Part shown: in pieces, positions 950-19,325 of the stretch
Position numbering within the stretch: the first letter of the stretch is position 1
Layout: each line of letters opens with the position of its first letter
Source of the DNA: Candidatus Woesearchaeota archaeon
Lineage (GTDB): Archaea > Nanobdellota > Nanobdellia > Woesearchaeales > JAFGLG01
Direction of reading: 5' to 3'
DNA: 19,325 nucleotides
NCBI GenBank assembly: GCA_016928155.1
Contig: JAFGLG010000016.1
Location: forward strand, 1 to 19,325
Translations under genes and position numbers: made by a program
The notes under the pieces: model-generated
Seen by the model: only the letters and a program-made list of their open reading frames with translations
What the model was told of the DNA's origin: nothing
Databases searched by the model: none

Positions 950-1963
950 ATGCCTAACATATCCAAATATGGGAAATTCTTGAAGGAAATCAAAGAGCGC
1001 ATCCAGAAGGCACAATACGAAGCTTTGAAATCTGTCAATAAAGAGCTTATTAACTTATATTGGGATCTTGGCATGATGATTGTTGAAAAACAAATGAATC
1101 AGGGATGGGGCAGAGGCATCATCAAAACTCTTGCCAAAGACCTGCAAAGGGAGTATCCGGGGATCAGGGGATTCTCTGCACAGAACCTATGGTATATGAG
1201 GCAATTCTATATGCATTATAAGGACAATGCAAAACTCCAACCACTGGTTGGAGAAATCAGCTGGGCAAAGAATATTATCATACTGGGTGGCTGTGAGGAT
1301 GATTCGCAACGGGAATTCTACATAAGAATGACCAAGAAATTTGGATGGACAAAAAATGTCCTCCTAAACCAGCTGGAAAACAGAGCCTATGAAAAATATC
1401 TTCTCAACCAGACTAATTTTGATAAAACCCTGCCCGAAAAATACAAAGCGCAGGCAAAGCTGGCTGTCAAGGATGAGTATATCTTTGATTTTCTTGAACT
1501 GGGAGAGCAGCACTCTGAACGAGAATTGGAAAGATCTTTAACAGACCAAATTAGGGGGTTTCTTACTGAGATTGGAAACTACTTCTGTTTTATTGGGAGT
1601 CAATTCAGATTAGAAGTCGGCGGTCAAGAGTATCTTGTTGATTTGCTGCTCTACCATAGAGAATTAAGATGCCTGATTGCAGTTGAGCTGAAGATTTGCG
1701 AGTTCAAGCCTGAATATGCCGGGAAGATGCAGTTCTACCTTTCTGCGCTGGATGATACGGTCAAACTGGATCATGAGAATCCTTCAATCGGCATGATCAT
1801 CTGCAAGAGCAAGAATAAGACGATAGTCGAGTACGCTTTGAAGGACACTAAGAAACCTATCGGGATTGCCTCTTATCGCCTGAGCAGGGAGTTGCCTGAA
1901 AGACTTTCAAAGTACTTGCCTTCTGAAAAGGATATTGGAAGGGGATTGAATGGACATCATTGA
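950..1963 (+). CDS. PD-(D/E)XK nuclease, DUF1016/YhcG family
   Basis: This 337-aa protein has the two-part build of the YhcG family. The N-terminal DUF1016 helical region (about 1-160) includes INLYWDLGMMI, GRGIIKTLAKDLQ and GFSAQNLWYMRQFY. The C-terminal PD-(D/E)XK endonuclease fold spans about 165-320. The catalytic set is intact: D231 in YLVDLLLYH, E246-L-K248 in AVELK, and Q261 downstream. Family members occur in restriction-associated and mobile contexts, but the DNA target and role are not settled. It overlaps the recombinase start by 14 nt, so the two are probably co-transcribed. Length is normal for the family. The family is certain; the biological role is inferred. Confidence 0.9.
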   Translation: MPNISKYGKFLKEIKERIQKAQYEALKSVNKELINLYWDLGMMIVEKQMNQGWGRGIIKTLAKDLQREYPGIRGFSAQNLWYMRQFYMHYKDNAKLQPLVGEISWAKNIIILGGCEDDSQREFYIRMTKKFGWTKNVLLNQLENRAYEKYLLNQTNFDKTLPEKYKAQAKLAVKDEYIFDFLELGEQHSERELERSLTDQIRGFLTEIGNYFCFIGSQFRLEVGGQEYLVDLLLYHRELRCLIAVELKICEFKPEYAGKMQFYLSALDDTVKLDHENPSIGMIICKSKNKTIVEYALKDTKKPIGIASYRLSRELPERLSKYLPSEKDIGRGLNGHH

Positions 1964-2789
1964 AGCGATGAAGAAAGAGATGCTCAGAAGGAAACTGAGC
2001 CATAGGACAATAATGACATACCTTTTTTATGTCAGGAAATTCTTGTTGTTCTGCCCTAAGGATCCAAAGCAATTCTCAAAGAAAGACTGCAGGGAGTTCC
2101 TGATGAGATTCATGGAGAAGGACCTCAAGTGGGCAGGCAAGAAGAATTCGGAGATTGCAGGATCTACCTTGAATGTGGCTCTTAACTCATTGAGATTCAT
2201 GATGGAAGAAGTGCTGAGAAAGAGCATGAGACTCAACATAAGATATTCAAAGACACCAAAGACAGCAGCAACCTGCCTGAGCAAGGAGGAAGTCAAGGCC
2301 TTGATATCTGTGATTGTCAATCCCAAGCACAGACTACTCATATCCTTGATGTATGGAGCAGGGCTTCGTGTCAGCGAGGCTGTCAAGCTGAAGGCAGAGG
2401 ATATCGAGCTTGAGGAGGATTTAGGATGGGTGAGAAGAGGGAAAGGCAATAAGGACAGGCCATTCATCGTTCCTAAGGGTTTGAAGGAATATTTACAGAA
2501 GCTTATTGAAGATTCAGGCACTTATCTGTTTCCAGGGCAGAATGGACACCTTTCAGCAAGGTCAGTGCAAGAGATAGTGAAAAAAGCATCAAAGAAGGCT
2601 AAGATAAAGAAGAAAATACATCCCCATACATTGAGGCACAGTTTTGCAACACACCTTCTAGAGGTTGGGAATGATGTTACAGTTGTACAAGCCTTGCTGG
2701 GCCATAATGAAGCCAGGACCACGCTGGAATACCTGCATAATGTGAAACCGAGAATGATCAGTGTGAAGAGTCCATTCGACAATCTATAA
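1950..2789 (+). CDS. tyrosine recombinase, archaeal Xer-like
   Basis: This 279-aa protein has an N-terminal SAM-like DNA-binding domain (about 1-95) and a C-terminal catalytic domain (about 108-279). All catalytic residues are visible: R140 in GAGLRVSE, K165 in the RGKGNKDR hairpin, H226-x-x-R229 in HPHTLRH, H252 in LLGH and nucleophile Y261. The C-terminus KSPFDNL resembles the tail of archaeal XerA proteins. The start is preceded by a GGGG-type Shine-Dalgarno (AGGGGATTGAATG) and overlaps the nuclease gene by 14 nt. It could serve chromosome dimer resolution as XerA does. Its pairing with a YhcG-type nuclease, the repeats upstream and the recombinase fragment downstream fit a mobile or accessory recombinase better. 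Confidence 0.9.
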   Translation: MDIIEAMKKEMLRRKLSHRTIMTYLFYVRKFLLFCPKDPKQFSKKDCREFLMRFMEKDLKWAGKKNSEIAGSTLNVALNSLRFMMEEVLRKSMRLNIRYSKTPKTAATCLSKEEVKALISVIVNPKHRLLISLMYGAGLRVSEAVKLKAEDIELEEDLGWVRRGKGNKDRPFIVPKGLKEYLQKLIEDSGTYLFPGQNGHLSARSVQEIVKKASKKAKIKKKIHPHTLRHSFATHLLEVGNDVTVVQALLGHNEARTTLEYLHNVKPRMISVKSPFDNL

Positions 2790-2792
2790 ATC

Positions 2793-2975
2793 ATGCAATT
2801 GATGAAACTTGCCTTGCTGGGTCATTCAAGGCTCTCCACGACACAGATATACACAAGAGTTGCAACCAACAAGATTGAAGGCATAGTCCGCTTGATTAGT
2901 AAAGAAGATATCAGCCCTGTCCTTAAGAAAAAACTGACAAATGGCATTACAGTCAGAAATGAAAAAAGAGATTGA
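2793..2975 (+). pseudogene. C-terminal fragment of a second tyrosine recombinase
   Basis: This 60-codon frame begins one codon after the TAA of the intact recombinase and lies in the same reading frame. Residues 7-25 (ALLGHSRLSTTQIYTRV region) repeat the final catalytic block: H11 of the LLGH motif and nucleophile Y20. The arginine, lysine and HxxR motifs are missing, so it cannot be an active enzyme on its own. GCCTTGCTGGG-CAT occurs at 2691-2705 and again at 2811-2825, with one mismatch and 120 nt apart. The tail (NKIEGIVRLISKEDISP) differs from that of the intact protein, so this is more likely debris of a paralogous recombinase than a simple duplication. Confidence 0.7.
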
Positions 2976-6042: not shown

Positions 6043-6465
6043 TCACTTCCTGGATCTTGTCCTGTCATAATACAATCTCAGGAAATCCTTCGGACTAAGG
6101 ATCCCTATGCTTCTAAACTCCTTTATCCTAAGCAGATGCCTGTCCTGACTTATGATATAATCAGATCTGCCTTCAACAGCAGCTTCAATGAATTTGTCAT
6201 CATCAGGATCAGCCTTGATAATCTTGAATCTCTTCTCAGGTTTGACAATCGCGGAATTTTCAATAATTTTCTGAACAACCCTTGGCAGGATCAATCCATT
6301 GTCAACAATCTTCTCTATGATCCTATCACTCTGCAACACTTTATTGTACTCTTCTATTATGGGATCGGAGAGAACACATATCAATTCTTTCCTGTCTATC
6401 AAATCCATTATCCTGAAAGAATCTCCGCTCCAGAAAGTGCCAGAGACCAGCACATTCGTGTCCAA
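6043..6465 (-). CDS. PIN-domain toxin of a toxin-antitoxin pair
   Basis: PIN-fold ribonuclease of the family annotated as toxin component (TIGR00305-like). Acidic residues expected for Mg-dependent RNA cleavage are present: D2 in DTNVLVSGTF, E38/E39 in DPIIEEYNKVL, D86-D90 in KADPDDDKF and D108 in IISQDRHLL. The only usual start codon in frame is the TTG at 6465, but it would remove the first beta strand. The codons just upstream read I-R-V-T-L-D, exactly the strand expected, and begin with ATT at 6477, which overlaps the antitoxin stop (ATTAG). So either an ATT start, giving 144 aa, or a TTG start is used. It follows the AbrB-type antitoxin in one operon. Confidence 0.82.
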   Translation of the reverse strand: MDTNVLVSGTFWSGDSFRIMDLIDRKELICVLSDPIIEEYNKVLQSDRIIEKIVDNGLILPRVVQKIIENSAIVKPEKRFKIIKADPDDDKFIEAAVEGRSDYIISQDRHLLRIKEFRSIGILSPKDFLRLYYDRTRSRK

Positions 6466-6472
6466 AGTTACC

Positions 6473-6733
6473 CTAATCTTTCCTGAGATGGTGTACTAAT
6501 CTATTCACGTCACCTTCATTAATCTTCTTCCTCTTTTGTCGTAGAGGTTCTGTAATCTGCGAAAAAGTTTCAGATGTCACTTTCTTTATAAGCAATGTGC
6601 TATCTGTCAGTATGAACAATACTCTTGCGCCTTCCTGCAGATTCAATCGGTTCCTCATATCAGTAGGGATTGCAATCTGGCCTCTTGAGCTCACTTTTCC
6701 GATGTCAATCATATCAGTTGCCATAAGTATCAT
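6473..6733 (-). CDS. AbrB/MazE-type antitoxin
   Basis: This 86-aa protein has the AbrB swapped-hairpin DNA-binding domain (MIDIGKVSSRGQIAIPTDMR, then LNLQEGARVLFILTDSTLLIKKV). The C-terminal tail (about 62-86) probably wraps the PIN toxin. It is expected to neutralise the toxin and repress its own promoter. The frame opens at 6760, but that ATG is only a few nt from the TATA box and could not be in the transcript. ATGs at 6733 (chosen, leader about 10 nt) and 6724 both fit. The toxin gene overlaps its end. Inverted repeats in its promoter (6732-6765) are candidate operators. Confidence 0.85.
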   Translation of the reverse strand: MILMATDMIDIGKVSSRGQIAIPTDMRNRLNLQEGARVLFILTDSTLLIKKVTSETFSQITEPLRQKRKKINEGDVNRLVHHLRKD

Positions 6734-6772
6734 CTTATTTACAAGATTAATAAGATACATCTTGTATATAAA
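6732..6772 (-). promoter_or_regulatory. TATA box and overlapping operator of the AbrB/PIN operon
   Basis: The minus strand has TTTATATA at 6765-6772. Two exact inverted repeats overlap the expected transcription start (near 6742): ATCTTATT (6732-6739) with AATAAGAT (6749-6756), and ACAAGAT (6741-6747) with ATCTTGT (6759-6765). Symmetry at this position fits autorepression by the AbrB dimer. Confidence 0.5.
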
Positions 6773-7713: not shown

Positions 7714-8184
7714 ATGGGGGAAGGATACAAACCAAAGGCTCTGGATTACCAGAATCTTCCACAGCAGGAGAGAGATAAGATTAATGATGCAGCTACAGTA
7801 ATGCTAGGAATACTTGAAGGAGCAAGGTCATATCAAGGAGCAAAGCGATATCTTTCTGGTGATACATTTCTTGTCTCGTTCCTAGATACAGACATGATGC
7901 TTGAGGGACTGGTGTACCTCATCGAAAGAGAGGACCCTGATGCAGAGCCCAGAGGAGCTGAGAACATGGCCATCAATGCAGTGCTCTTCCTAGCAACAAC
8001 AGAACGGAAAGAAATGATACCCTACCTGAGATCGATCGGTGGCAATGCAGAACCTAGATTAAGCAAGGCTAGCTGCACACCGGCACTTGTGGCAGCAAGC
8101 CAGCAGGCATTATACAAATTGAGCAACGGCAAAGAAGGGCTTGAGCATGCCCTGGATACATATGACATGATGTCAAGTGCCTAG
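7714..8184 (+). CDS. alpha-helical protein of unknown function, HEAT-like
   Basis: This 156-aa protein is predicted to be soluble and mostly helical. It starts MGEGYKPKALDYQNLPQQ and contains helices such as AATVMLGILEGARSYQGA and, near the end, ALVAASQQALYKLSNG, which resembles one HEAT-type helix. The frame is open to a TTG at 7624, but the promoter places transcription at 7714, so the longer form would not be made. No signal peptide, TM segment or catalytic motif seen. It overlaps the end of the giant gene by 12 nt, tail to tail. The same promoter type is found on the 221-aa gene at 13632, and the two may belong to one regulon. Confidence 0.6.
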   Translation: MGEGYKPKALDYQNLPQQERDKINDAATVMLGILEGARSYQGAKRYLSGDTFLVSFLDTDMMLEGLVYLIEREDPDAEPRGAENMAINAVLFLATTERKEMIPYLRSIGGNAEPRLSKASCTPALVAASQQALYKLSNGKEGLEHALDTYDMMSSA

Positions 8185-11100
8185 TGCTCCTTCAATAGTA
8201 CCTATTATCCTTCCATGATTGGCCACGAAATTGTCAAGCAAATCTATCATCATCAATATCCTGTTCTGCTCATCCACTGTGATGCCAGCCTTATTCTGAT
8301 CGCTCCTCAATCTCATCGGATCCTGATAGTACTCCTTCATCTGTTCTATTGTCTCCTCATGCGAATCCGGCTCCTCCACAGAATATCCATACATCGGAGA
8401 ACGTGACCTATATGCATTATATGAGTCTATCACCATCAGCAGAATTGCATCGTCAGAACGGTATTTCGGGTCTATGAAACGACTAGGATAACCACTTGTG
8501 AAATGATGCCCCATGATTATCGAAGCAATATCCTCCGGGAATCCATCATCTATCCTGTCCTGGATATCCTGGTCCTTGAGATGGCTGTCATACAGATCCC
8601 TCATCTGCAGGGCTTCAATCTTGGTGTCATGCGCAGCTGCCCAATCCTGCGCCCAAGACAAGGCTTCCTTCTCGTCGCTGTCCAATTCAAGCCTGATGCG
8701 GCCTTCTATTGTCTCACCGACAGAATACTCGTTGAAAATGGTCCTAAGATTGGGGTCTGTGGCAGCATCCTCTTCAACCTGAGCAATCCTGACCTTGAGA
8801 TAAATCCCCCCCAAGGCAGTCCTCGAGTCAGCAGTGCGCAACTCCCTGTCAATCTGCTCTGCAAACCTCGTGCTCTTGAGTCCGCTCATGATCCTTGTTA
8901 TCCTTTCCCTCACCTGATCACTATCCATGCCTTCCAGCTCATCCTCATATGTGAATCCTATATGCCTCTTGATCGCATTAAGTCTTATTGCATCATTCAC
9001 AAGCATCCCACCAAGGGATCTTCCAGAGAACCTGAATATTATGGCTCTCCCTCTCTCGCTAACCTTACCAAGGTCATGGAACCTTGCAGCGCTCTGAACA
9101 CTTCCTGGATGAACATCCAATGCCATCCCTTCCTGAGATGCAACCCATCTCGATACCTGATCAGCAAATATCCCTGACAATAATGAGACCTCAACAATAT
9201 GCTGGCGCAGATCACCATATTCCCTCAAGACCTTGAGCTCATCACCAAGCCCCTGTTCTCCCCAAAGGCCAAAAATCCTCTCGCTCTCCCTCAATACCTT
9301 CCTCTCCAGAGGGGCATACTGCTCAGGATGAAGGATGACACCGCCAACCTCAATCTCCTCATCCCAGCCATCGACTCTTATGGCTTTCATGACCAATGGG
9401 CTTCCGCTTCCAAGCTCTGTGTTAAACTGGTCATCGAGCTGCTGCTTGATCTCTAATGGTAGATCATTGCGATCCACTTCAACACCATCCTTAGTATAGA
9501 CAACAACACCTTCTTCGTTGACATTAGCGGAAAAGCCGTCGATGACGAGGGTTGCTTGAGCTTCTTGGTTTACAGCAGATCCTTGATCAGTGCCTTTGGT
9601 GGCTATAGGTATCCCCATGGAGATTCTGTACCTATCATAAACAGCCAGGCCATTCCATTCACCTAAGGTCATACCACGATTCGGTAGGAAGGTTGAGGGA
9701 TCTTTAGTAGAGAGGATTTCGATATCATCACCCTTCTCCTTATAAACATCATCGAAGAGCCTCTGTTGAGTATCTGCAATGAGGCGCTGCTTCTGCTCTA
9801 TGGAAAGCTGAGAGAATTGGGTCCGGCTTACTCCTAAAACTGTTTCCATCTCCTCAACAGATTCAGCAGGTCCAAACAGGGCAAAATCACCAATCTTGCG
9901 GCCTCTCAGATTCTCAAGGGTATCCGGGGTCTGTGACATAAGAGCAAGCGTCTGTTTGATGCCATCAACAATATTACTTTTATCTCTTATATGGAATGTC
10001 TCATAGCGCTGATATCTGGCCATCAAATCATCTATGGACTCTGATAATCTTGGGTCATCAAGTGACGCTATCTCCTGTTCAATCATATCCCTCAATCCCT
10101 GCAAAGTCAGGGGAGTCCCTTTCAAGGCCCCAGTGCCTGTATACAGCACATCAAAATCAGAAGCCAGGATCTTCTCATTGTTCAACTTCCTATCTAGTAT
10201 CCTATCCATCATCCTGTCAATATCAAAACCCGCATCCAGCAATGGCTGCAACAAACCAAACCTCATGAGAGCTGATTTTGTCCTATCTGCTCCCTGTCTG
10301 TCTCTGATATTACTGAAGATCGACTCAAATTCCTTGTTCATAACGCTGCTAAAAATAAGATTGCTGACAGAGATATGATCAGCGACAAATCCAGCTGCAA
10401 TATTCTTCAGTCTCTGTTCAGTCTCTGGATCAGGTTCAAGGGAATGCTCACCCATGAACCGTATACCTCTCAGCAACTGTCTCAATTCAGGGTCCCGTTT
10501 AACATCCTTGCCGGGAACCAATCTCAGGACACCATTCTCAGAATCAGATATGGCCTGGGCTGATCCGTATAAGATGCCATCAGAGGACAACTGGAATCTT
10601 GAAACTGTGAAGCCCCACTCATCAAAAATCTCTTCTCCTATACCCTGTGAAAGAAAATCAATAGTGACTGCATCCGGGAACAATCTTGCTGCCTCAGATC
10701 TGAGTGCTGCTTCCTGATTTTCAGTGATCCCTTTCGGGGTTACAATATCAAGATCAGAAAGGCCTGTGAATCCAGGCATCCCAAGCATGGGCCTCCTTAC
10801 ATCACCTCCAGTTATGGCAACATCAATATCCAGCCTTCTTCTTGCGAAATTGAAGAATTCGGTTATCCTAGGATCAACAGTCATCTGCCTTGGCCGGCCA
10901 GTCGCATGCTCAGTGACCTGCAGGACATGGAAGCCGTCAGATGTCGTCGATACAGGTTTAATGCCTTGTCGGGAACGATTTGAAAGCCAGTTGACAGCCT
11001 TCATAGCATAATAAGTCGTTCCAACAGCTGCCGCGATGCCAAGACCATACCATAAAATGGGGCTTGAGAGGAGTCCAGTCTGAGCATTCTGGACACTGCC

Positions 11101-13377
11101 GAGGGAGTCAGCCCAGGCGCTCATTGATGATGCTAAAAACACACCTGCTGTTATGGCACCATTCCGCGCAGCAGAGCCCAGTCTCCTGAGGAAGCCTGTT
11201 GAGGCAGGGGCTTGGGCGGGCGCTTGGTCTTCTTGGGCTGGTGATTGAGCAGATGGCTCTGCTTCTTGGACTGTTTGTGTTTGCTTCGCCTGTGCTTTTG
11301 CAATCAGGCCATCCCTGATAGCTTCCTGCTCTTGGGTCAAACCTGTCAATGCGTTAAGGTCACGGATGACGGTTGCAGGGCTCATTCCATTCTGCAGATC
11401 CAACCTTGCCTTGTCGAGAGCTGCTTCGACTGAGTACCCTTTTTCTGAAATCTCCAATAACTCATCCATCAATGCAGACTCTTCAGCATCTGTCATCGAG
11501 TCATATCCATCAACATACTGCATGAGATCAGACAGATGGAGTCTGAAATCATATTCCCCTACCTGGAAATCAATGATCTTCACATTGCCTTGTGAGTCAA
11601 CCACAATATTCTGTGCCTTAAAATCATACAGTCCTATGCCTGACTGCTTTGCAAAATAATATGCGTTGGATATGTCTCGTAATGCATCTGCATGGATTGT
11701 TGTATCAGATATCACATCACCCTCAACATACTCCCTGAGGTATGCGTCCCCATAATATTCATAGGGGATCACAAATGCCCCTGAGTCCTTGAGCTTATCC
11801 AGAGTATCATATTCAGTTCTCAAGGAAGTGCCAGGCATAGCAATTTTCAATACAAATTCTTGTCCATCCTTCTCTACAACCTGAACAATACCAAAACCAC
11901 CGATACCAATCACTCTCTTGAATATGAGTGTCGGATCAATCTGGGATGTGGACCTGAGAGATCCTACCCTCTGTGCAATAGTATCCATGCTGTTCACAAT
12001 TTGAGATAAGCGATCAAATTCTTCTTGGCTTAGCAATCCTTCGAACATGTCATAGCTCAGACCTTTAGCAATATTCTGACTCTTGTCCAGATTATTGACA
12101 ACGTTTCTAACTACGATATCAATAATCTCCCCGCTGAACATTTCCTGATATGGGTTGAAAAGAACCCTTATTCTATCCTGCATCTCGGAAGTTCCAGTGT
12201 CTGCCCTAGGCTGATATCCAGACTTATCATCATTCTCCTCCTGGATCCACTTGTATGCTTCTGCTGCCCCATATGCAATCGCGCCAGCCACTGCACTGAT
12301 CCCGATAAAGGGCATGAGCGGAGCTGTGAATACTGCGAGGGAATCTGTCATAGCAGGAGAGAAGACCAATCCCATACCCGCAAACAGTGATGCCATCATC
12401 ATGCCTGGTGTTGCGAAGCCTGCCTCAGGGAATGGCACTTGCAGAGCAGACTGTATTGCTTGTGCCTGTCCAGGTGTTGCCTCTCTGCCCCACCCGTCAA
12501 CCTGATCCTGTGTTGTGAGACCTATCGCTTTTCCGTCAGGGGCAGTGTAGAGAGTTATGTGGGCAGGACTCCTCGCTATCGGTTCCTGTATACCCAATGC
12601 TTGCAGTCGTTGGTCAATATTGTCATAGAATTCCTGCATCCCTTCAGCCTGTACATGTTCTATTATTGTCCTTCTTCCCTGATCATCCCTGACGATGCTG
12701 TATCTGCCTGTCCTTGTGACGCTGAAATCTATCCCTTGCGCTGCTTGAGTCATGATCTCTTTGGCCTTGTCCTTTGCCTCCTTGTTTGAGAGGCCTATGG
12801 TCTTCAAGATCTTCTGAAGATCATGGCCAAAACCAATCAATGTCGTGTGGAATTCTGCCTTCGGTGTCCATTCCTCACCATCCATGGTGAATGGAGAAGG
12901 TCTTTGGATATCAAGAGACAATGCTGTGCCAGCAGAGGTTATATCCACTTTTGGTGATAATACAGCTGAAGGCCTCGCAGGCTCTATCATCACCATGCTC
13001 TCGACAAGACCATCAGCTTTTTCTTTATGACCTTGTTTGATATTATAATTGAGATTGTAATAATCAGTAGCAAGTGTTAGAGTATCAACTGAGCCAAAGT
13101 ATCTTAGGAGCACATCATCACTGATCTCATAACCTGCTTCGCTTAACTTGTCCCTTATCAATCCCTGAAATATGGATTGTATCTCTGCATCAGCCCTGCC
13201 AGTAGCACCAGCGGCAAGCAGATCAGACCTTATCGATTCAATAATTGGTGCAACAGAATCTTTCCCTATCATACCCTGTTCATTAGGGGTAGGACAGACC
13301 TGCGCAAAAGAGAAAGGCATGCCTATTATCAGAAGCGTCAAGAAGATCGCTATGGCCTTGCAATTCTCCTTCCTCAT
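8173..13377 (-). CDS. giant multidomain membrane protein: 2H, kinase, NTase, HD-GYP
   Basis: This 1734-aa protein starts with a signal peptide (about 1-25, IFLTLLIIGMPFSFAQ). Domains in order: 2H-phosphoesterase-like (about 174-280; H177-TTL and H273-ITL). Hydrophobic segments (about 318-372). Protein-kinase-like domain (about 486-645; loop GIGGFG at 491-496, K511, E522, D585-FKAQN590, D603-FQ in place of DFG). A Gln/Ala/Pro-rich linker (about 695-725). Hydrophobic segments (about 738-795). Class II nucleotidyltransferase (about 835-910; GGDVRR, D875-L-D877, third acid D907), followed by a helical region like the RNA-binding neck of CCA enzymes (to about 1050). HD-GYP-like domain (about 1385-1680; H1393, H1434-D1435-LGK, H1472, H1624-H1625-FTSGYP, D1651). 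The start has GAGGTGA upstream and overlaps the RHH gene by ATGA. Individual domains are well supported; the overall function is unknown. Confidence 0.85.
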   Translation of the reverse strand: MRKENCKAIAIFLTLLIIGMPFSFAQVCPTPNEQGMIGKDSVAPIIESIRSDLLAAGATGRADAEIQSIFQGLIRDKLSEAGYEISDDVLLRYFGSVDTLTLATDYYNLNYNIKQGHKEKADGLVESMVMIEPARPSAVLSPKVDITSAGTALSLDIQRPSPFTMDGEEWTPKAEFHTTLIGFGHDLQKILKTIGLSNKEAKDKAKEIMTQAAQGIDFSVTRTGRYSIVRDDQGRRTIIEHVQAEGMQEFYDNIDQRLQALGIQEPIARSPAHITLYTAPDGKAIGLTTQDQVDGWGREATPGQAQAIQSALQVPFPEAGFATPGMMMASLFAGMGLVFSPAMTDSLAVFTAPLMPFIGISAVAGAIAYGAAEAYKWIQEENDDKSGYQPRADTGTSEMQDRIRVLFNPYQEMFSGEIIDIVVRNVVNNLDKSQNIAKGLSYDMFEGLLSQEEFDRLSQIVNSMDTIAQRVGSLRSTSQIDPTLIFKRVIGIGGFGIVQVVEKDGQEFVLKIAMPGTSLRTEYDTLDKLKDSGAFVIPYEYYGDAYLREYVEGDVISDTTIHADALRDISNAYYFAKQSGIGLYDFKAQNIVVDSQGNVKIIDFQVGEYDFRLHLSDLMQYVDGYDSMTDAEESALMDELLEISEKGYSVEAALDKARLDLQNGMSPATVIRDLNALTGLTQEQEAIRDGLIAKAQAKQTQTVQEAEPSAQSPAQEDQAPAQAPASTGFLRRLGSAARNGAITAGVFLASSMSAWADSLGSVQNAQTGLLSSPILWYGLGIAAAVGTTYYAMKAVNWLSNRSRQGIKPVSTTSDGFHVLQVTEHATGRPRQMTVDPRITEFFNFARRRLDIDVAITGGDVRRPMLGMPGFTGLSDLDIVTPKGITENQEAALRSEAARLFPDAVTIDFLSQGIGEEIFDEWGFTVSRFQLSSDGILYGSAQAISDSENGVLRLVPGKDVKRDPELRQLLRGIRFMGEHSLEPDPETEQRLKNIAAGFVADHISVSNLIFSSVMNKEFESIFSNIRDRQGADRTKSALMRFGLLQPLLDAGFDIDRMMDRILDRKLNNEKILASDFDVLYTGTGALKGTPLTLQGLRDMIEQEIASLDDPRLSESIDDLMARYQRYETFHIRDKSNIVDGIKQTLALMSQTPDTLENLRGRKIGDFALFGPAESVEEMETVLGVSRTQFSQLSIEQKQRLIADTQQRLFDDVYKEKGDDIEILSTKDPSTFLPNRGMTLGEWNGLAVYDRYRISMGIPIATKGTDQGSAVNQEAQATLVIDGFSANVNEEGVVVYTKDGVEVDRNDLPLEIKQQLDDQFNTELGSGSPLVMKAIRVDGWDEEIEVGGVILHPEQYAPLERKVLRESERIFGLWGEQGLGDELKVLREYGDLRQHIVEVSLLSGIFADQVSRWVASQEGMALDVHPGSVQSAARFHDLGKVSERGRAIIFRFSGRSLGGMLVNDAIRLNAIKRHIGFTYEDELEGMDSDQVRERITRIMSGLKSTRFAEQIDRELRTADSRTALGGIYLKVRIAQVEEDAATDPNLRTIFNEYSVGETIEGRIRLELDSDEKEALSWAQDWAAAHDTKIEALQMRDLYDSHLKDQDIQDRIDDGFPEDIASIIMGHHFTSGYPSRFIDPKYRSDDAILLMVIDSYNAYRSRSPMYGYSVEEPDSHEETIEQMKEYYQDPMRLRSDQNKAGITVDEQNRILMMIDLLDNFVANHGRIIGTIEGALGT

Positions 13378-13511
13378 AAGTCACCTCTGGAGAAAAGCTT
13401 CACCTTGATATAAGCAGAAAGAGAGATGCCAAGCTTCTTTGCCTCAGCCTCTACCTTAGCTTTCTCTTCAGGGCTGAGATACACGTGGACCATATGTTTC
13501 TTTGAAGCCAT
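13374..13511 (-). CDS. 45-aa ribbon-helix-helix DNA-binding protein
   Basis: The frame reads MASKKHMVHVYLSPEEKA, then KVEAEAKKLGISLSAYIKVK and ends LFSRGDL. This is the CopG/Arc fold: a short beta strand (MVHVYLS), helix (PEEKAKVEAEAKKLG) and the ISLSAYIK second helix. It would bind DNA as a dimer. Its stop overlaps the start of the giant gene (ATGA), so the two are translated together. A TATATAAA box on its 5' side lies within the palindromic divergent promoter at 13528-13581, its probable operator. An orphan regulator or an antitoxin-like role are alternatives; no toxin is next to it. Confidence 0.8.
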   Translation of the reverse strand: MASKKHMVHVYLSPEEKAKVEAEAKKLGISLSAYIKVKLFSRGDL

Positions 13512-13581: not shown

Positions 13582-13601
13582 GAGTGGTGAAAAACACAAC
13601 A

Positions 13602-13609
13602 TTTATAAA
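13602..13609 (+). promoter_or_regulatory. TATA box of the 221-aa/ARH operon
   Basis: TTTATAAA, centred 26 nt upstream of the ATG at 13632. This fixes that start over the upstream GTG at 13584 and implies a leaderless mRNA. Confidence 0.6.
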
Positions 13610-13631
13610 TATTGTATCATATGAATTCAGG

Positions 13632-14297
13632 ATGAGTCCAAACCAAGATTCAGGATTTTCTTCAGTACAGAATTATCTAAGTGCTGTGAATGATTATCTA
13701 AAGCAGGAACCATCAAAGGGAGAAGATGCAGATTTTGCAGAACTTGAAGCAGTATGCAACATGGCAGGTGCCAGGCTCATCAGTTATCAGAGAGATCCCA
13801 GAGTCCTCTTGATAGGGACACATGCATCTTTCGCCTCACAGGACAGTCCAATCGCATCAGTGATCAGAGATAATCTCGAAGAAAATGATTCAGTCATGTT
13901 CCCTTATGAATTCAGAGGTAGGATATTGACCGGGCTGGATATGATGAAGGGATTTGTCTCACTTATCCACGAAGAGCTTCAAGGGAAGAATGCTTATGTA
14001 ATAGCTAATGATGATCCTGCAATCGTATGCCAGATAGCAGACACTGCAAGGGATCTCGATAGACTGGTCATCGGTGAAGCTGCAAAAACAGATATTGATA
14101 AGACAGCAGACAGGCTCTTAATACTTTATAATATGAGAGAGAACAACTTCTTGTACTCCAAATGGGGTATCATCCCCCAATTGGAGCTATCAAGAAAGGT
14201 CTTCCAAGTGCTCCCTGTAAAGCATCTCGCTTCGCAATACATAGCAGGAGCACTTCAGGAGAAAGGGATAAGCTATTGCGAAATATTGCCAGGCTGA
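13632..14297 (+). CDS. 221-aa protein of unknown function
   Basis: It begins MSPNQDSGFSSVQNYLSAVN. A beta-strand-like core RVLLIGTHASFASQDSP leads into a helix and DSVMFPYEFRGRI. A second alpha/beta part follows (NAYVIANDDPAIVCQIADTA, RLVIGEAA), then YNMRENNFLYSKW. The pattern GTxH...V..E..R followed by a later R-E-N block loosely recalls the TraB/TIKI and EreA/ChaN group of hydrolase-like proteins. The match is weak and could be chance. No signal peptide or TM segment. It is first in an operon with the HEAT/ADP-ribosylglycohydrolase, 4 nt downstream, and divergent from the giant-protein operon. Function unassigned. Confidence 0.65.
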   Translation: MSPNQDSGFSSVQNYLSAVNDYLKQEPSKGEDADFAELEAVCNMAGARLISYQRDPRVLLIGTHASFASQDSPIASVIRDNLEENDSVMFPYEFRGRILTGLDMMKGFVSLIHEELQGKNAYVIANDDPAIVCQIADTARDLDRLVIGEAAKTDIDKTADRLLILYNMRENNFLYSKWGIIPQLELSRKVFQVLPVKHLASQYIAGALQEKGISYCEILPG

Positions 14298-14301
14298 AAA
14301 A

Positions 14302-15912
14302 ATGACGGACCTTGAGAACATAATGAAGACAGGAAGCGTGTCAGAGAGGATCGAAGCCTTGACAAGGTTCGCTCTCACTCAAGACACAGAAAATCTTCCG
14401 TATGTATTGGGAGAATTAGAACACCATAGGAGCCTGAATGTCAAGCAAGCAATGTGCCTCAGCCTGAGATATTTCGATGCACCTGGGACAGGTTTCAAGC
14501 TTGAAAAGATGCTAGAAGATGATTCACCAAAAGTGAGATGGGCTGCTGCATATGGACTAAGCGGCATAACCAGTTATACACCCCATGATTTTTTCCGAAG
14601 AGCAGCTGAATCCTCAGATAGGGAGACCTGGAGCCTAGCCTTGCAGAGCTTAAATACAACAAACCTACCCGCAGCTGAACACATGATAGAATCAGCCCTT
14701 TCCCACAGCGATCCCTTCGTGGTATCTACAGCCGTATACAGGGCAGGTAAACTTACCGGACCTGACTTCATTGAGAGAGCGAAAGGCTTCACAGGACATC
14801 CAGACGTAACAGTAAGGGAGAATGCTTTCAGAATATTATACGAGCTGGGGGATAATGGGGTCCTCGAAGACATGGCAAATGATGAGGACGAGATCATCAG
14901 GATGAGAGCGCAACTCTTGGCCAAGGGCAAGATAGAAGAGAAAAAATCTTATGATCCAGAACTTGAAGACAAGTTCATAGGTTGTATGGTGGGAGCGGCT
15001 ATCGGAGATGCCATCGGAGCACCAATAGAGACATTATCCCAAGAAGGAATCCAAAAGAGATATGGCACTGTCACCAGTTACATATCAAATGAACTCAGGA
15101 GAGGCACGCCTCTAGGAATCGCAGAATGGACTGATGATACCGAGATGGCAATGACAGTTGCTGAGTCCCTAATGAGAATGGGGGGCATAGACCCCCAACA
15201 CCTGGGTGAGCTTTTCGGCAGGGACATTGACAGGATAGATTCACTCCAAGAAAAAGAAAGAGGGTATTCAGTCAGATCAATCCAAGTCTCCAGAATGCTG
15301 AGGTTAGGGGTAAATTGGAGATATACCGGAATTGATTCGCTCGGATGCGGTTCAGTCATGAGGGCACACCCAATCGGGTTATTCTTCAGGGACAATATGC
15401 CTGATATGAAGAAGAATTCTGATCTTCAATCCAGGATAACCCATAATGGAGAAGAATCATCAGCCTCTTCCCTACTATTATGCTATGCAGTCTCATTGGC
15501 TTCACAATACAAACCTGAAGACGGAGGCATACCACAAGATTTCTATAAGAGAATCCTGGATCTTTCAGGATGTTCAGGAACTCTCCATGACGAGCTGAAG
15601 GATTATGCAGATAACCAGAATCTCACTTTGTTGGAACTAGTAGAATTGAAGAAAGGTGGCAGAGGTCCTGTAGGCACAGTCACTGTAGCTGTAGATTCTT
15701 TCATGAGAAGCCCTGATGATTTCCGTGATGTAATAATCCGAGCGATAAACCACAGCGGGGATTCAGATAGTGTAGGATCGATGGCAGGAGCAATGGCCGG
15801 AGCATACAATGGATTCAGCAGAATACCGGAAGATATGGTCAAGCCATTATACAGGAAAGATGATCTGATTGAGTTGGGGAAACAATTATACAAAGCTTAC
15901 AGAAAGACCTAA
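14302..15912 (+). CDS. HEAT-repeat/ADP-ribosylglycohydrolase fusion
   Basis: This 536-aa protein has about five HEAT-type helical repeats at the N-terminus (about 1-210), for example SPKVRWAAAYGLSGI and HPDVTVRENAFRILYELG. An ADP-ribosylglycohydrolase (DraG/ARH) domain follows (about 221-536). Metal-binding motifs are intact: GAAIGDAIGAPIE (230-243), W276-TDDTE with D278 and D279, GCGSVMRAHPIGL (348-360) and H484-SGDSDSVGSMAGA with D487 and D489. ARH enzymes remove ADP-ribose from protein side chains (often Arg) or from related adducts; the HEAT part would choose the partner. No ADP-ribosyltransferase is recognised in the window. It overlaps the stop of the convergent phosphatase gene. Confidence 0.88.
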   Translation: MTDLENIMKTGSVSERIEALTRFALTQDTENLPYVLGELEHHRSLNVKQAMCLSLRYFDAPGTGFKLEKMLEDDSPKVRWAAAYGLSGITSYTPHDFFRRAAESSDRETWSLALQSLNTTNLPAAEHMIESALSHSDPFVVSTAVYRAGKLTGPDFIERAKGFTGHPDVTVRENAFRILYELGDNGVLEDMANDEDEIIRMRAQLLAKGKIEEKKSYDPELEDKFIGCMVGAAIGDAIGAPIETLSQEGIQKRYGTVTSYISNELRRGTPLGIAEWTDDTEMAMTVAESLMRMGGIDPQHLGELFGRDIDRIDSLQEKERGYSVRSIQVSRMLRLGVNWRYTGIDSLGCGSVMRAHPIGLFFRDNMPDMKKNSDLQSRITHNGEESSASSLLLCYAVSLASQYKPEDGGIPQDFYKRILDLSGCSGTLHDELKDYADNQNLTLLELVELKKGGRGPVGTVTVAVDSFMRSPDDFRDVIIRAINHSGDSDSVGSMAGAMAGAYNGFSRIPEDMVKPLYRKDDLIELGKQLYKAYRKT

Positions 15913-18900
15913 CATACTTTTGCCTTCTCTGCCTGTACACCTATGTGCATGTCTAAGATGCTTTCTCTTGAATCAATCAACCCATTCTGCAAGAGATGCT
16001 CTTCATATACCCTAAAAGCAGATATCAACTCTTCATCTGAATACTGCAGACCCAATGCACCTGCAATCTGCCTAAATCGTGTGAAGTCAAGAATTCTCAC
16101 CTCAGACCTCATCTTATCCCTGAATAACCTGGACTGCTCAGCGCTAATATCTGAAGGTGATTCTCCATCTGAAAGGAGAGTCCTGTCACCTGATTGAGAA
16201 ACCTCTGACATCATGTCACTATCTATATAAAAGTGGGATATCATGGAAGCTGTCTCTTGGACATCAACATCCTCACCTTGCCTTTCTCTCTTCTGATCCA
16301 CATCAAGCTTGATGAACTGGCTATTCAATCCAATCCTATTTACTGAAGTTATCTGGTTTGCAATGCCTGGCAAGATTGAATCAGAAGGTTCTACATTCCC
16401 TAGACCATAGAATGGATTATGGCCCCCCGCCAGTAAGTCAGCACCCAGTATGTCAAGGAAACTAGTCAACAATCCAGGATCCAGTAAGAAATCAGGGAAT
16501 CTAGCCTGACCTCCAGCAGCCTTATCTGACTTGTCAGCAGCCAATATTGTGGTGCTGTCTGTCGTGAAATATGGTGTGTTCAATCCTTCAGACAGCCTTC
16601 TTGCGAGAAGCTCATTCACATCATTTATTGAGATGGATCCTTTACTCTGACGCAAATCCTGAAGCTCCTTCATGAATTCAGCGGTGGGTCCTCCATGCAC
16701 AAATGCAAGAGAGGGTCCGCCTTCAACATTAACCTTTGCGATCATCGGCCTGGTCAGGAGCCAATCAATATATTGCATAGCCTGCGGGTTGATTTCCCTA
16801 AGTTCCTGCAGTGCTCGTTGGTCATTTGATGCAAGTGCTCGTATAAGCTTAGGTATCTCACCTGTGCCCTCATCAAAAACAGTCTTCTTACCCTCCTGGA
16901 CAAAACCAATATCACCTGTGAAGCCGAATGCCTTGAGCATATCCACCCTTCTCCATTTCCTGCCAACAGGATAATGCCACATGCCTCCTGGTACAGCCAA
17001 GAAATCAACTTCATGATTACCCATCAATACGACAACTGCTCCATCTTTCTCTCTGGCCTGTGATTCAAGATCCTTCAAAAGCTTTATTGCCTCAGCTGAT
17101 TGGATACCTGAAGTGTCGCTGCCTCCGTCGATGAGATCCCCTATCTGCAGAAGAACTGTTCCAGGCTCCGCAATCCAGTTCCCAGATTCATCCATGATCC
17201 CCCTATCCACGAGGGTCTTCCTCAAGTTGGCAGTGCTCGCATGAAGATCACCGATAGAAACAAGACGCTTGGCAGAGACTTCTACGACAGGACCTTCGGA
17301 TCTCACTGATTCTTTCCTTGATGGCCCAACCCTGGTCATCTCTGCGTCGACATATGATCCTAATTCATTTACCAGATCATCAATAGTATCCACCCTATCC
17401 TGCAGAACTGCTGTTTCCAGGATAGGGACAAAATCCCGGTCCACTTCCTCTACACCATAAAGCTTCTTACCCGCTTCACTCTGCGGGAGATCCCCATATC
17501 TTTCTGATAGGTAATCTGTGGCAATCTTGATTGATACTTCGGTCAACTTAGTATCCTTCAGAAGCACCTGTTTAATCCTAGCTATATCCAGATCAGCTCT
17601 TCCTGCAACAAGATCCTCATCTATTATAGACAGAACCTGACCTTGAGCCTTGCCCGGAATATTAATCCCATGTTTTTCAGCTAAGCTATCAATCATTGTT
17701 TTTCTGAAATTCCTACGTTGAGTCTGGGTCATGCCACTACTTGTATACAATCTTTGAATTGACGGCTGAGATTTGGTAGCTGCACTCTTAGCCTTTTTCT
17801 CATACATCGTCTTGTAATCCTCAAGGGTTCCACCTTCTATGACCTTGACAGTGGCTCCCGAGACTTCTGTTGTCTCTCTTATAGGAAGTTCTGTCAATCC
17901 AACTGAGAACAAGTAAGCCTCAAGCCTGCCTTGAGAATAGCTCTCCCAATCACTCCCTTCCATAAAATATACCTGCAAACCTTGGCAACCAGTGCATGCT
18001 TCCAAAGAACGTGTAATCCATTCCCTGTCTGTGACCGGAGCCATGATTATCTGATCAGATAATGGTATGGAATTTGGGATATGACCTTCAATCTTACCAA
18101 CCACGCTGTTTGAACTCATCCCCTGAAGAACACTTATTATCTGATTGAAATGCATACTGTTCTGAACAAGATAGGTGATATCAAGCCCAGAATCCAGATT
18201 GGTCTTCAGGTGATTATAGACTATTGATGCAGCTAGCAATCTTTTCGCATCATCCTGATCCATAGCTGCACTGATCTTCTCTTCAAGGGACAAGGTCGGC
18301 ATGCCATAGCTTGTATAGAATCCATAGTTCTCATCCCTAGGAAGATAGAAGGAGTCCTCTGATTCCTGCAATCCTTGAGGGCTGAAGATGAAAACAATAT
18401 TGCCATACATGAAGTCCCCTGGGCTTCCAAGATTGACATGGACATGCTCAGTGCCTGCCCATAGCTCATCCTTGGTACTGAACCCTGTCTCAGCTGACCT
18501 GTAAAACATAGGCGTATGGCCTTCACTCAATACAATGTCCAACAGTCCACCTTCTCCTGAATCCTTGATCATTGTCCTGGTATGTGGCAGGCGAGAGACC
18601 ACAGGCATGATCATCTCAGACATTTGCTTGACATAATCCTTGACCCTCGACCTCAATTCATGGCTTATCTCAAATCTATCGACAAGACTGTCTACCAACT
18701 GATCAACACTCTTCTCAGTATTCTTATCAGACTTCCCCTTCTTGTCTTGTATCACCTGCAATATCGCACTATGGTAGGCCTCGGGATCAGCCATTTGCGC
18801 CTTCAGTATCAGGAAGAACTCTTCGATAAGAGGATAATTCCCCAATATGCTCTCAATCTCCTTCTTCTTCAGTTCCACTTCCTCCTGAGAATGCGTTCTT

Positions 18901-19325
18901 GAGGGATCAGGCTTCTTCGGCTCAATCGGAGATACTTCCAGGAATATGTTATCAGGTTTAATATCCTCTGGGTCTGTCTTATCCCCTACAAATAATGAGA
19001 TCCTCATACCATCCAGATCAGCTACCTGGAAATAATATCTGCTCTTTGCATGTGTCGGAGATGCGAAACTTATCGGGTAGAGCCTGCCCATGAAGTTCAG
19101 GTTCATGTTACCTCTCTCGTCCTCGACAATCATGATGCCTTTCTGGCCAAGGAATGTCCTTGTCTGGCTGGATGCTAATGATTGTCTAATACTGTCTGCG
19201 AGCCTGATCTCTTCCTCTGAAAGCTGAGAACCTATAGGTTCAACCTGCTCTGAAGATGGCGCTTCAGGCATTTCAGGTATGACGACTGCAAATCTCCCTT
19301 CCCATTGGCTTGCCGGCGGTATCTC
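15909..19325 (-). CDS. giant protein with PPP-type metallophosphatase, N-terminus outside window
   Basis: The frame stays open past the first ATG (19271) to the window edge with no stop, so at least 1138 residues are present and the true start is unseen. Counting from the ATG at 19271, residues 1-660 match nothing recognised (a helical/coiled region about 130-220, then GTEHVHVNLGSPGDF). Residues about 668-955 are a PPP-type (Shelph/ApaH-like) metallophosphatase with all metal ligands: D675-LH677, D712-LID, N752-HE754, H859 in FVHGG and H951 in GGHNPF. The second motif reads GDLIDGG, lacking the arginine of the usual GDxxDRG. The C-terminus (about 990-1120) is acidic and helical. It converges with the ARH gene (stop codons overlap). 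Likely substrates are phosphoproteins or dinucleotides; not decided. Confidence 0.82.
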   Translation of the reverse strand, partial: EIPPASQWEGRFAVVIPEMPEAPSSEQVEPIGSQLSEEEIRLADSIRQSLASSQTRTFLGQKGIMIVEDERGNMNLNFMGRLYPISFASPTHAKSRYYFQVADLDGMRISLFVGDKTDPEDIKPDNIFLEVSPIEPKKPDPSRTHSQEEVELKKKEIESILGNYPLIEEFFLILKAQMADPEAYHSAILQVIQDKKGKSDKNTEKSVDQLVDSLVDRFEISHELRSRVKDYVKQMSEMIMPVVSRLPHTRTMIKDSGEGGLLDIVLSEGHTPMFYRSAETGFSTKDELWAGTEHVHVNLGSPGDFMYGNIVFIFSPQGLQESEDSFYLPRDENYGFYTSYGMPTLSLEEKISAAMDQDDAKRLLAASIVYNHLKTNLDSGLDITYLVQNSMHFNQIISVLQGMSSNSVVGKIEGHIPNSIPLSDQIIMAPVTDREWITRSLEACTGCQGLQVYFMEGSDWESYSQGRLEAYLFSVGLTELPIRETTEVSGATVKVIEGGTLEDYKTMYEKKAKSAATKSQPSIQRLYTSSGMTQTQRRNFRKTMIDSLAEKHGINIPGKAQGQVLSIIDEDLVAGRADLDIARIKQVLLKDTKLTEVSIKIATDYLSERYGDLPQSEAGKKLYGVEEVDRDFVPILETAVLQDRVDTIDDLVNELGSYVDAEMTRVGPSRKESVRSEGPVVEVSAKRLVSIGDLHASTANLRKTLVDRGIMDESGNWIAEPGTVLLQIGDLIDGGSDTSGIQSAEAIKLLKDLESQAREKDGAVVVLMGNHEVDFLAVPGGMWHYPVGRKWRRVDMLKAFGFTGDIGFVQEGKKTVFDEGTGEIPKLIRALASNDQRALQELREINPQAMQYIDWLLTRPMIAKVNVEGGPSLAFVHGGPTAEFMKELQDLRQSKGSISINDVNELLARRLSEGLNTPYFTTDSTTILAADKSDKAAGGQARFPDFLLDPGLLTSFLDILGADLLAGGHNPFYGLGNVEPSDSILPGIANQITSVNRIGLNSQFIKLDVDQKRERQGEDVDVQETASMISHFYIDSDMMSEVSQSGDRTLLSDGESPSDISAEQSRLFRDKMRSEVRILDFTRFRQIAGALGLQYSDEELISAFRVYEEHLLQNGLIDSRESILDMHIGVQAEKAKVC

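Follow-up and report, generated by a model that had tools for sequence, protein, structure and literature searches.

The DNA analysed here (the window) is an entire contig of 19,325 bp (JAFGLG010000016.1) from a Candidatus Woesearchaeota archaeon of the order Woesearchaeales (assembly GCA_016928155.1; genome of 1.48 Mb, 99.7% complete). Its minus strand carries a giant gene, here called P0001, in which segments resembling a 2H phosphoesterase, a Hanks-type kinase, a class II nucleotidyltransferase and an HD-GYP domain follow one another on a single chain of 1734 amino acids (aa). The frame opens with an ATG at 13377, downstream of the Shine–Dalgarno-like AGAGGTGA, and runs over 1734 codons to a stop at 8173–8175; at the local base composition, the probability of so many open codons by chance is ~1e-45. 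GC content was highest at codon position 1 in at least 10 of 12 consecutive 145-codon windows of the gene, with no break in the pattern that would point to fused genes. A mis-binned contig is not indicated, because the tetranucleotide profile fits the other contigs of the genome (r 0.91–0.94). The features of P0001, from the N-terminus onwards, are as follows.

8173..13377, minus strand: giant gene P0001, 1734 aa (single open frame, coding signal throughout, Shine–Dalgarno-like site)
13303..13377, minus strand: predicted Sec signal peptide, aa 1–25, MRKENCKAIAIFLTLLIIGMPFSFA followed by Q (hydropathy, basic n-region, cleavage-like site)
12523..12930, minus strand: 2H phosphoesterase-like domain, aa ~150–285, with HTT 177 and HIT 273 (TIGR02258, AlphaFold2 model, structural matches)
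12253..12423, minus strand: hydrophobic region 1, aa 319–375, one or two membrane helices (hydropathy 1.52 and 1.84)
11458..11940, minus strand: Hanks-type kinase N-lobe, catalytic loop and metal site, aa ~480–640 (Pfam Pkinase, alignment with kinases of the order)
10993..11175, minus strand: hydrophobic hairpin 2, aa 735–795 (resemblance to region 1, positive charge on either flank)
10198..10893, minus strand: class II nucleotidyltransferase-like domain, aa ~829–1060, with GGDVRR 857, D875-x-D877 and D907 (tblastn relative, hhalign, PDB profile search)
9226..10197, minus strand: linker, aa 1061–1384, no domain recognised (Pfam scan of the 9000–10200 fragment)
8308..9225, minus strand: divergent HD-GYP domain, aa ~1385–1690, with H1393, H1434-D1435, H1472 (tentative), H1624-H1625, GYP 1629–1631 and D1651 (Pfam HD, HD-GYP profile, hhalign)

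The kinase segment matched Pfam Pkinase with E=2e-7 and 31.1 bits, just under the cut-off of 31.7, and the match stops at position 144 of the 263 in the profile. Alignment with nine kinases of the order shows that the G-loop (GIGGFGIV491), the lysine K511, the catalytic D585 and N590 and the metal-binding D603 are retained, with LYD replacing HRD and DFQ replacing DFG. Neither alignment nor profile shows a recognisable activation segment, APE motif, alpha-F Asp or C-lobe, and by sequence the domain is a Hanks-type kinase without a recognisable C-lobe. The N-terminal segment matched TIGR02258 weakly (E=0.021) and had no sequence match in the PDB. It carries both of the H-x-T/S motifs that, on a two-lobed fold, mark the 2H superfamily, and a single-sequence AlphaFold2 model of it was made without an alignment (pTM 0.55, pLDDT 58). 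Foldseek placed 2H enzymes at ranks 1, 2, 9, 13–15, 17, 18, 25, 27 and 31, and the best 15 rows from VIA were 2H enzymes except for rank 10, a mitoribosomal chain not identified as 2H (Z 3.0–4.0). None of these structural matches is significant singly, and the roughness of the model keeps Z from exceeding 4.0; it is the ranking that lends support to a predicted 2H phosphoesterase fold.

Direct Pfam and PDB matches for the nucleotidyltransferase and HD-GYP segments were below threshold or absent, and both were therefore assessed by profile tests with shuffled or reversed controls. A profile of class II CCA-adding enzymes and poly(A) polymerases (CCA/PAP) scored 12.0 bits on the nucleotidyltransferase fragment with two collinear motifs, against 5.4 for the best of 1000 shuffles. 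Compared with CCA/PAP by hhalign, four sequences of the family to which the segment belongs gave 97.2% (E=3e-11, 219 columns) and the P0001 sequence alone 91.6%, the controls reaching at most 0.9% (column shuffles) and 0.2% (reversed), and a PDB profile search put poly(A) polymerase and CCA enzymes on top (E 0.11–0.9). The homology covers the class II head domain with its GG and DxD motifs; the D-x-D is invariant in five of five family members and the third acid is kept in all four aligned. DEWGFTVS stands in place of the RRD motif (RRDFTIN) and RDPELR in place of EDxxR, both motifs being largely degenerate in the relatives too. By profile comparison, the domain appears to be a class II, CCA/PAP-like nucleotidyltransferase, and since Pfam gives no convincing family for any of the five members, the family is outside Pfam coverage. 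An AlphaFold2 model of this domain without an alignment (pLDDT 51, Foldseek uninformative) was not used. The PolyA_pol genes of the order were rejected as a close source, as they occur in only 3 of 145 genomes and not in that of P0001.

The HD-GYP segment matched Pfam HD at E=1e-3, scored 15.4 bits with an HD-GYP hidden Markov model built from the order (best of 500 shuffles, 10.4) and reached 65% in hhalign against 0.3% when reversed. The metal ligands H1393, H1434-D1435, H1624-H1625 and D1651 align, as does the GYP, while the third histidine, H1472, is tentative. The loop that reads HHE..dGxGYP elsewhere is HHFTSGYP here, three residues shorter and with HHE changed to HHF, and a long insert separates HDLGK from HH. 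Curated HD_5 (PF13487) finds two other genes of the genome and not P0001, which lacks the HHExxxGxGYP motif; on sequence, this is a divergent HD-GYP domain. In the linker fragment ahead of it, Pfam gave no match save one weak one under the cut-off.

The predicted signal peptide combines a hydropathy peak of 2.13 at 9–27 with a basic n-region and an S-F-A cleavage-like site, and would be cleaved after aa 25. Hydrophobic region 1 and hairpin 2 resemble each other (local alignment score 51, reached by none of 1000 shuffles, although the best of these came to 49, a small margin). The flanks of hairpin 2 carry charges of +2 and +3, which under the positive-inside rule would place the end of the kinase and the nucleotidyltransferase in the cytoplasm. 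P0001 is probably exported and membrane-anchored. The original prediction, made from the letters alone, had described a single 1734-aa archaeal chain at 8173–13377 with these four folds, a signal peptide and two sets of hydrophobic segments. The coordinates, the archaeal origin, the signal peptide and the two regions are all upheld, as are the four folds, by separate tests for each domain, and the motif positions that it quoted (H177/H273; K511, D585, N590, D603; D875, D877, D907; H1434-D1435; HHxxxGYP from H1624-H1625) are exact. Its statement that nearly all key residues are intact holds for the residues quoted, but not for the kinase HRD and DFG, the nucleotidyltransferase RRD and EDxxR or the HHE loop of the HD-GYP domain, which are altered.

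Relatives were sought in 60 near genomes, 371 genomes of the phylum and 352 of the order (overlapping sets) and in a scan of GTDB contigs by peptide patterns. No full-length relative of P0001 was found in any of them, and no homologue with the order 2H–kinase–nucleotidyltransferase–HD-GYP, making this order, of which the original prediction knew no described case, unprecedented among the genomes searched. Viral contigs gave no match for the HD segment or for a CCA query. With the full protein as tblastn query, the 352 order genomes yielded a nucleotidyltransferase relative in an 839-aa frame (genome G504, E=3e-8), and the family profile then found the domain in giant frames of 5913 aa (G185), 5699 aa (G301) and 5578 aa (G394, contig C30). 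At L075 1–2517, which holds a nucleotidyltransferase relative, a JAMM-like HTHPS...PSTTD motif was seen by eye in the N-terminal part of the frame. The 5913-aa frame (G185 contig 18, L083) has, apart from its profile-found nucleotidyltransferase, no Pfam match at E 0.01.

A second large gene of the window ties into the same set of giants.

15909..19325, minus strand: neighbour gene of at least 1120 aa, of which aa 660–870 form a Shewanella-type PPP phosphatase domain (Metallophos E=2.6e-8; PDB 2zbm E=1.6e-6)

Its frame is open at the contig end and the true protein may be larger. The PPP phosphatase domain recurs in frames of 17312, 12045, 7993, 5578 and 2094 aa from four related genomes. It shares a frame with a kinase in G006 (17312 aa), G023 (12045 aa) and G396 (2094 aa) and with the nucleotidyltransferase in G394 C30. 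The G006 frame holds two C-lobe-less kinase domains together with helicase/ResIII, DnaJ, HEAT and Ig-like domains, and signal peptides open the three giants whose start is in view (G006, G394 C18 and G301). Both large genes of the contig thus carry parts of an enzyme kit that is dealt out among the giants of the order. More widely, giant frames of 5578–17312 aa, several of them cut by contig ends, lie in related Woesearchaeales at L046–L048 (G006 contig 36), L050–L052, L053–L055, L083 and L085–L086, and their domains include kinases, PPP phosphatase, helicase/ResIII, DnaJ, HEAT, SpoIIE, FHA and Ig-like domains.

The remaining genes of the window are smaller. One of them adjoins P0001 directly.

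13374..13511, minus strand: 45-aa RHH-like open reading frame (ATGA overlap with the P0001 start; RHH by pattern only)

It is likely the first gene of a P0001 operon and was not seen ahead of three other giants checked. Beside P0001 on the plus strand, an ADP-ribosylglycohydrolase is fused behind HEAT repeats (14302–15912), preceded by a 237-aa gene without Pfam match (13584–14297). Further away lie a YhcG-type PD-(D/E)XK nuclease (PADLOC PDC-S02, E=1e-145) and a tyrosine recombinase (950–2975, plus strand), the apparent C-terminal remnant of a second recombinase (2793–2975, plus strand) and, in tandem, small AbrB-like and PIN-like genes that by eye are toxin–antitoxin-like (6043–6760, minus strand). 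No conjugation genes (type IV secretion system, T4SS) or phage packaging genes (portal, terminase) occur among the scanned genes of the window, which is a short contig.

We read P0001, with moderate confidence, as a Sec-targeted, membrane-anchored multi-enzyme protein that belongs, as a small member, to a giant-protein class of Woesearchaeales shaped by domain shuffling. Shuffling is suggested because the nucleotidyltransferase and C-lobe-less kinases recur separately and in different combinations in the giants, while the order seen in P0001 is kept in no other genome searched. The 2H domain would lie outside the membrane, binding or hydrolysing a nucleotide or an RNA end, and the kinase, nucleotidyltransferase and HD-GYP domains would lie in the cytoplasm, as the basic flanks of hairpin 2 and the need of these enzymes for ATP or NTP suggest. 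The kinase and the adjacent PPP phosphatase could form an opposed phosphorylation pair; a protein or small molecule might receive a nucleotide from the nucleotidyltransferase, and the HD-GYP domain might hydrolyse a nucleotide phosphodiester or serve as a binding module. The whole would be a modular protein anchored at the surface and serving in signalling or contact, and lineages would exchange its enzyme modules; its function is probably membrane-anchored phosphoryl- or nucleotidyl-transfer signalling. Several observations weigh against this interpretation. No giant has more than one detectable domain in common with P0001, the nucleotidyltransferase being the sole link detectable by pairwise comparison; no 2H or HD-GYP domain was detected inside any giant, and at 1734 aa P0001 is small for the class. 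The flanks of region 1 are acidic and it may cross the membrane once or twice, the proposed topology being drawn from hydropathy and charge alone. With several catalytic motifs degenerate, one or more of the domains may be inactive.

Four known groups offer comparisons. SPEARE proteins of Nanohaloarchaeota (Hamm 2019, PMC6642349) are likewise very large, multidomain and membrane-associated DPANN proteins, SPEARE-like sequences have been reported from Woesearchaeota (PMC6642349), and giants of the order to which P0001 belongs share Ig-like and ResIII/DEAD domains with them. P0001, however, is far shorter, has another enzyme set and shows no Pfam match to the serine protease, adhesion and restriction-enzyme domains that SPEARE proteins combine on one very long chain. 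The polyvalent proteins of phages and conjugative elements (Iyer 2017, PMC5512222) also carry many catalytic domains per chain, among them C-lobe-less kinases, 2H domains and nucleotidyltransferases. The domain kit fits, but P0001 has a signal peptide and membrane segments, which do not, and lacks a phage packaging or T4SS context; moreover, the nucleotidyltransferases of polyvalent proteins belong to the protein-modifying Pol-beta type, and the main text of PMC5512222 makes no mention of HD-GYP. Giant open reading frames of Omnitrophota (PMC10066038) are secreted or membrane giants too, with few recognisable domains and poor conservation between species; they are bacterial, and P0001 is far smaller and has recognisable enzyme domains. 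Class II CCA/PAP enzymes with a C-terminal HD domain share the head-domain fold (GGxxR...DxD) and the position of the nucleotidyltransferase ahead of the HD, but in P0001 RRD and EDxxR are lost, the HD resembles an HD-GYP domain and lies over 300 aa further off, and the family has no Pfam match. Because the SPEARE-defining domains and the polyvalent context are both missing, P0001 is best read as SPEARE-like in style and not by domains, and is filed under neither group.

The main alternative, which we consider unlikely, is a contact effector, that is, an exported multi-enzyme protein that, like polyvalent or SPEARE proteins, would act inside or upon a partner cell. It would explain a signal peptide beside ATP-dependent enzymes that can work only inside a cell, and it draws on the occurrence of C-lobe-less kinases, 2H domains and nucleotidyltransferases in polyvalent proteins (PMC5512222), on the SPEARE-like content (Ig-like, ResIII/helicase) of the order's giants and on studies that connect the giant open reading frames of other nano-sized prokaryotes with attachment to a host (PMC10066038, PMC6642349). 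Pfam scans of P0001 nevertheless gave no delivery module and no adhesion, protease or restriction domain, the positive-inside flanks favour cytosolic enzymes, and conjugation and phage packaging genes are missing from the window.

The original prediction had pictured a self-contained signalling or RNA-end-processing device. In a nucleotide-messenger device, a nucleotide, cyclic or linear, would be made by the nucleotidyltransferase and destroyed by the HD-GYP and 2H domains, with the kinase setting the balance. The chain does hold phosphodiester makers and breakers, with the nucleotidyltransferase D-x-D triad conserved and the HD-GYP metal ligands largely present. To our knowledge, GGDEF has been described as almost absent from archaea. 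GGDEF matches in DPANN were noted earlier (PMC8646023), and here they occur in 27 of 50 genomes of the order, HD-GYP matches occurring in 43 of 145. Both being common in the order, nucleotide signalling is plausible, and three GGDEF matches and two other HD-GYP matches in its own genome make it likely in this archaeon. The device itself is doubtful. Class II CCA/PAP-type enzymes extend RNA ends, and messenger-making nucleotidyltransferases belong to other families. In giants, neither HD-GYP nor 2H accompanies the nucleotidyltransferase, the 2H domain of P0001 is probably on the opposite side of the membrane, and the domain combination is kept in no other genome searched. A self-contained device with a meaningful order is therefore not borne out, the nucleotidyltransferase and C-lobe-less kinases being recombined among giants, whereas the signalling part of the proposal stands as a possibility.

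The RNA-end part fares worse. In such a repair or tailing enzyme the 2H domain would open cyclic phosphates, the kinase would phosphorylate 5' ends, the nucleotidyltransferase would add nucleotides and the HD domain would trim them. Elsewhere, 2H, CCA-type nucleotidyltransferase and HD enzymes all work on RNA ends, and nucleotidyltransferase-then-HD is the order of HD-bearing CCA enzymes (L016, L018). The reading is very improbable, because the kinase is Hanks-type and not a P-loop polynucleotide kinase, RRD and EDxxR, by which CCA-adding enzymes recognise nucleotides, are lost, the HD resembles HD-GYP and a signal peptide is present. Hardly credible is an assembly chimera of several genes, or a decaying gene with leftover inactive domains, which the short contig ending within the neighbouring frame and the degenerate motifs might suggest, but which the single frame with unbroken coding signal, the genome-like tetranucleotide composition, the two similar membrane hairpins in the chain and the nucleotidyltransferase acids kept across distant relatives all contradict.

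Returning to the domain-shuffled giant class, we can offer one bolder proposal only tentatively and think it improbable: that an undescribed class II-type nucleotidyltransferase family inside archaeal giant membrane or secreted proteins is joined here with a kinase, an HD-GYP domain and an outward 2H domain into a machine for nucleotide transfer or nucleotide messengers that spans the membrane and has no archaeal precedent. Reports on giant proteins of nano-sized prokaryotes usually recognise few domains in them. In P0001 and its relatives, an enzyme kit of C-lobe-less kinase, PPP phosphatase, Pfam-uncovered CCA-type nucleotidyltransferase, HD-GYP and 2H domains is spread among giants in one archaeal order. 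Through parts that recur, reshuffled, in related archaeal giants, P0001 connects to a class of giant surface proteins that is little understood, and at 1734 aa it could be expressed domain by domain, which would make a class that is hard to handle testable.

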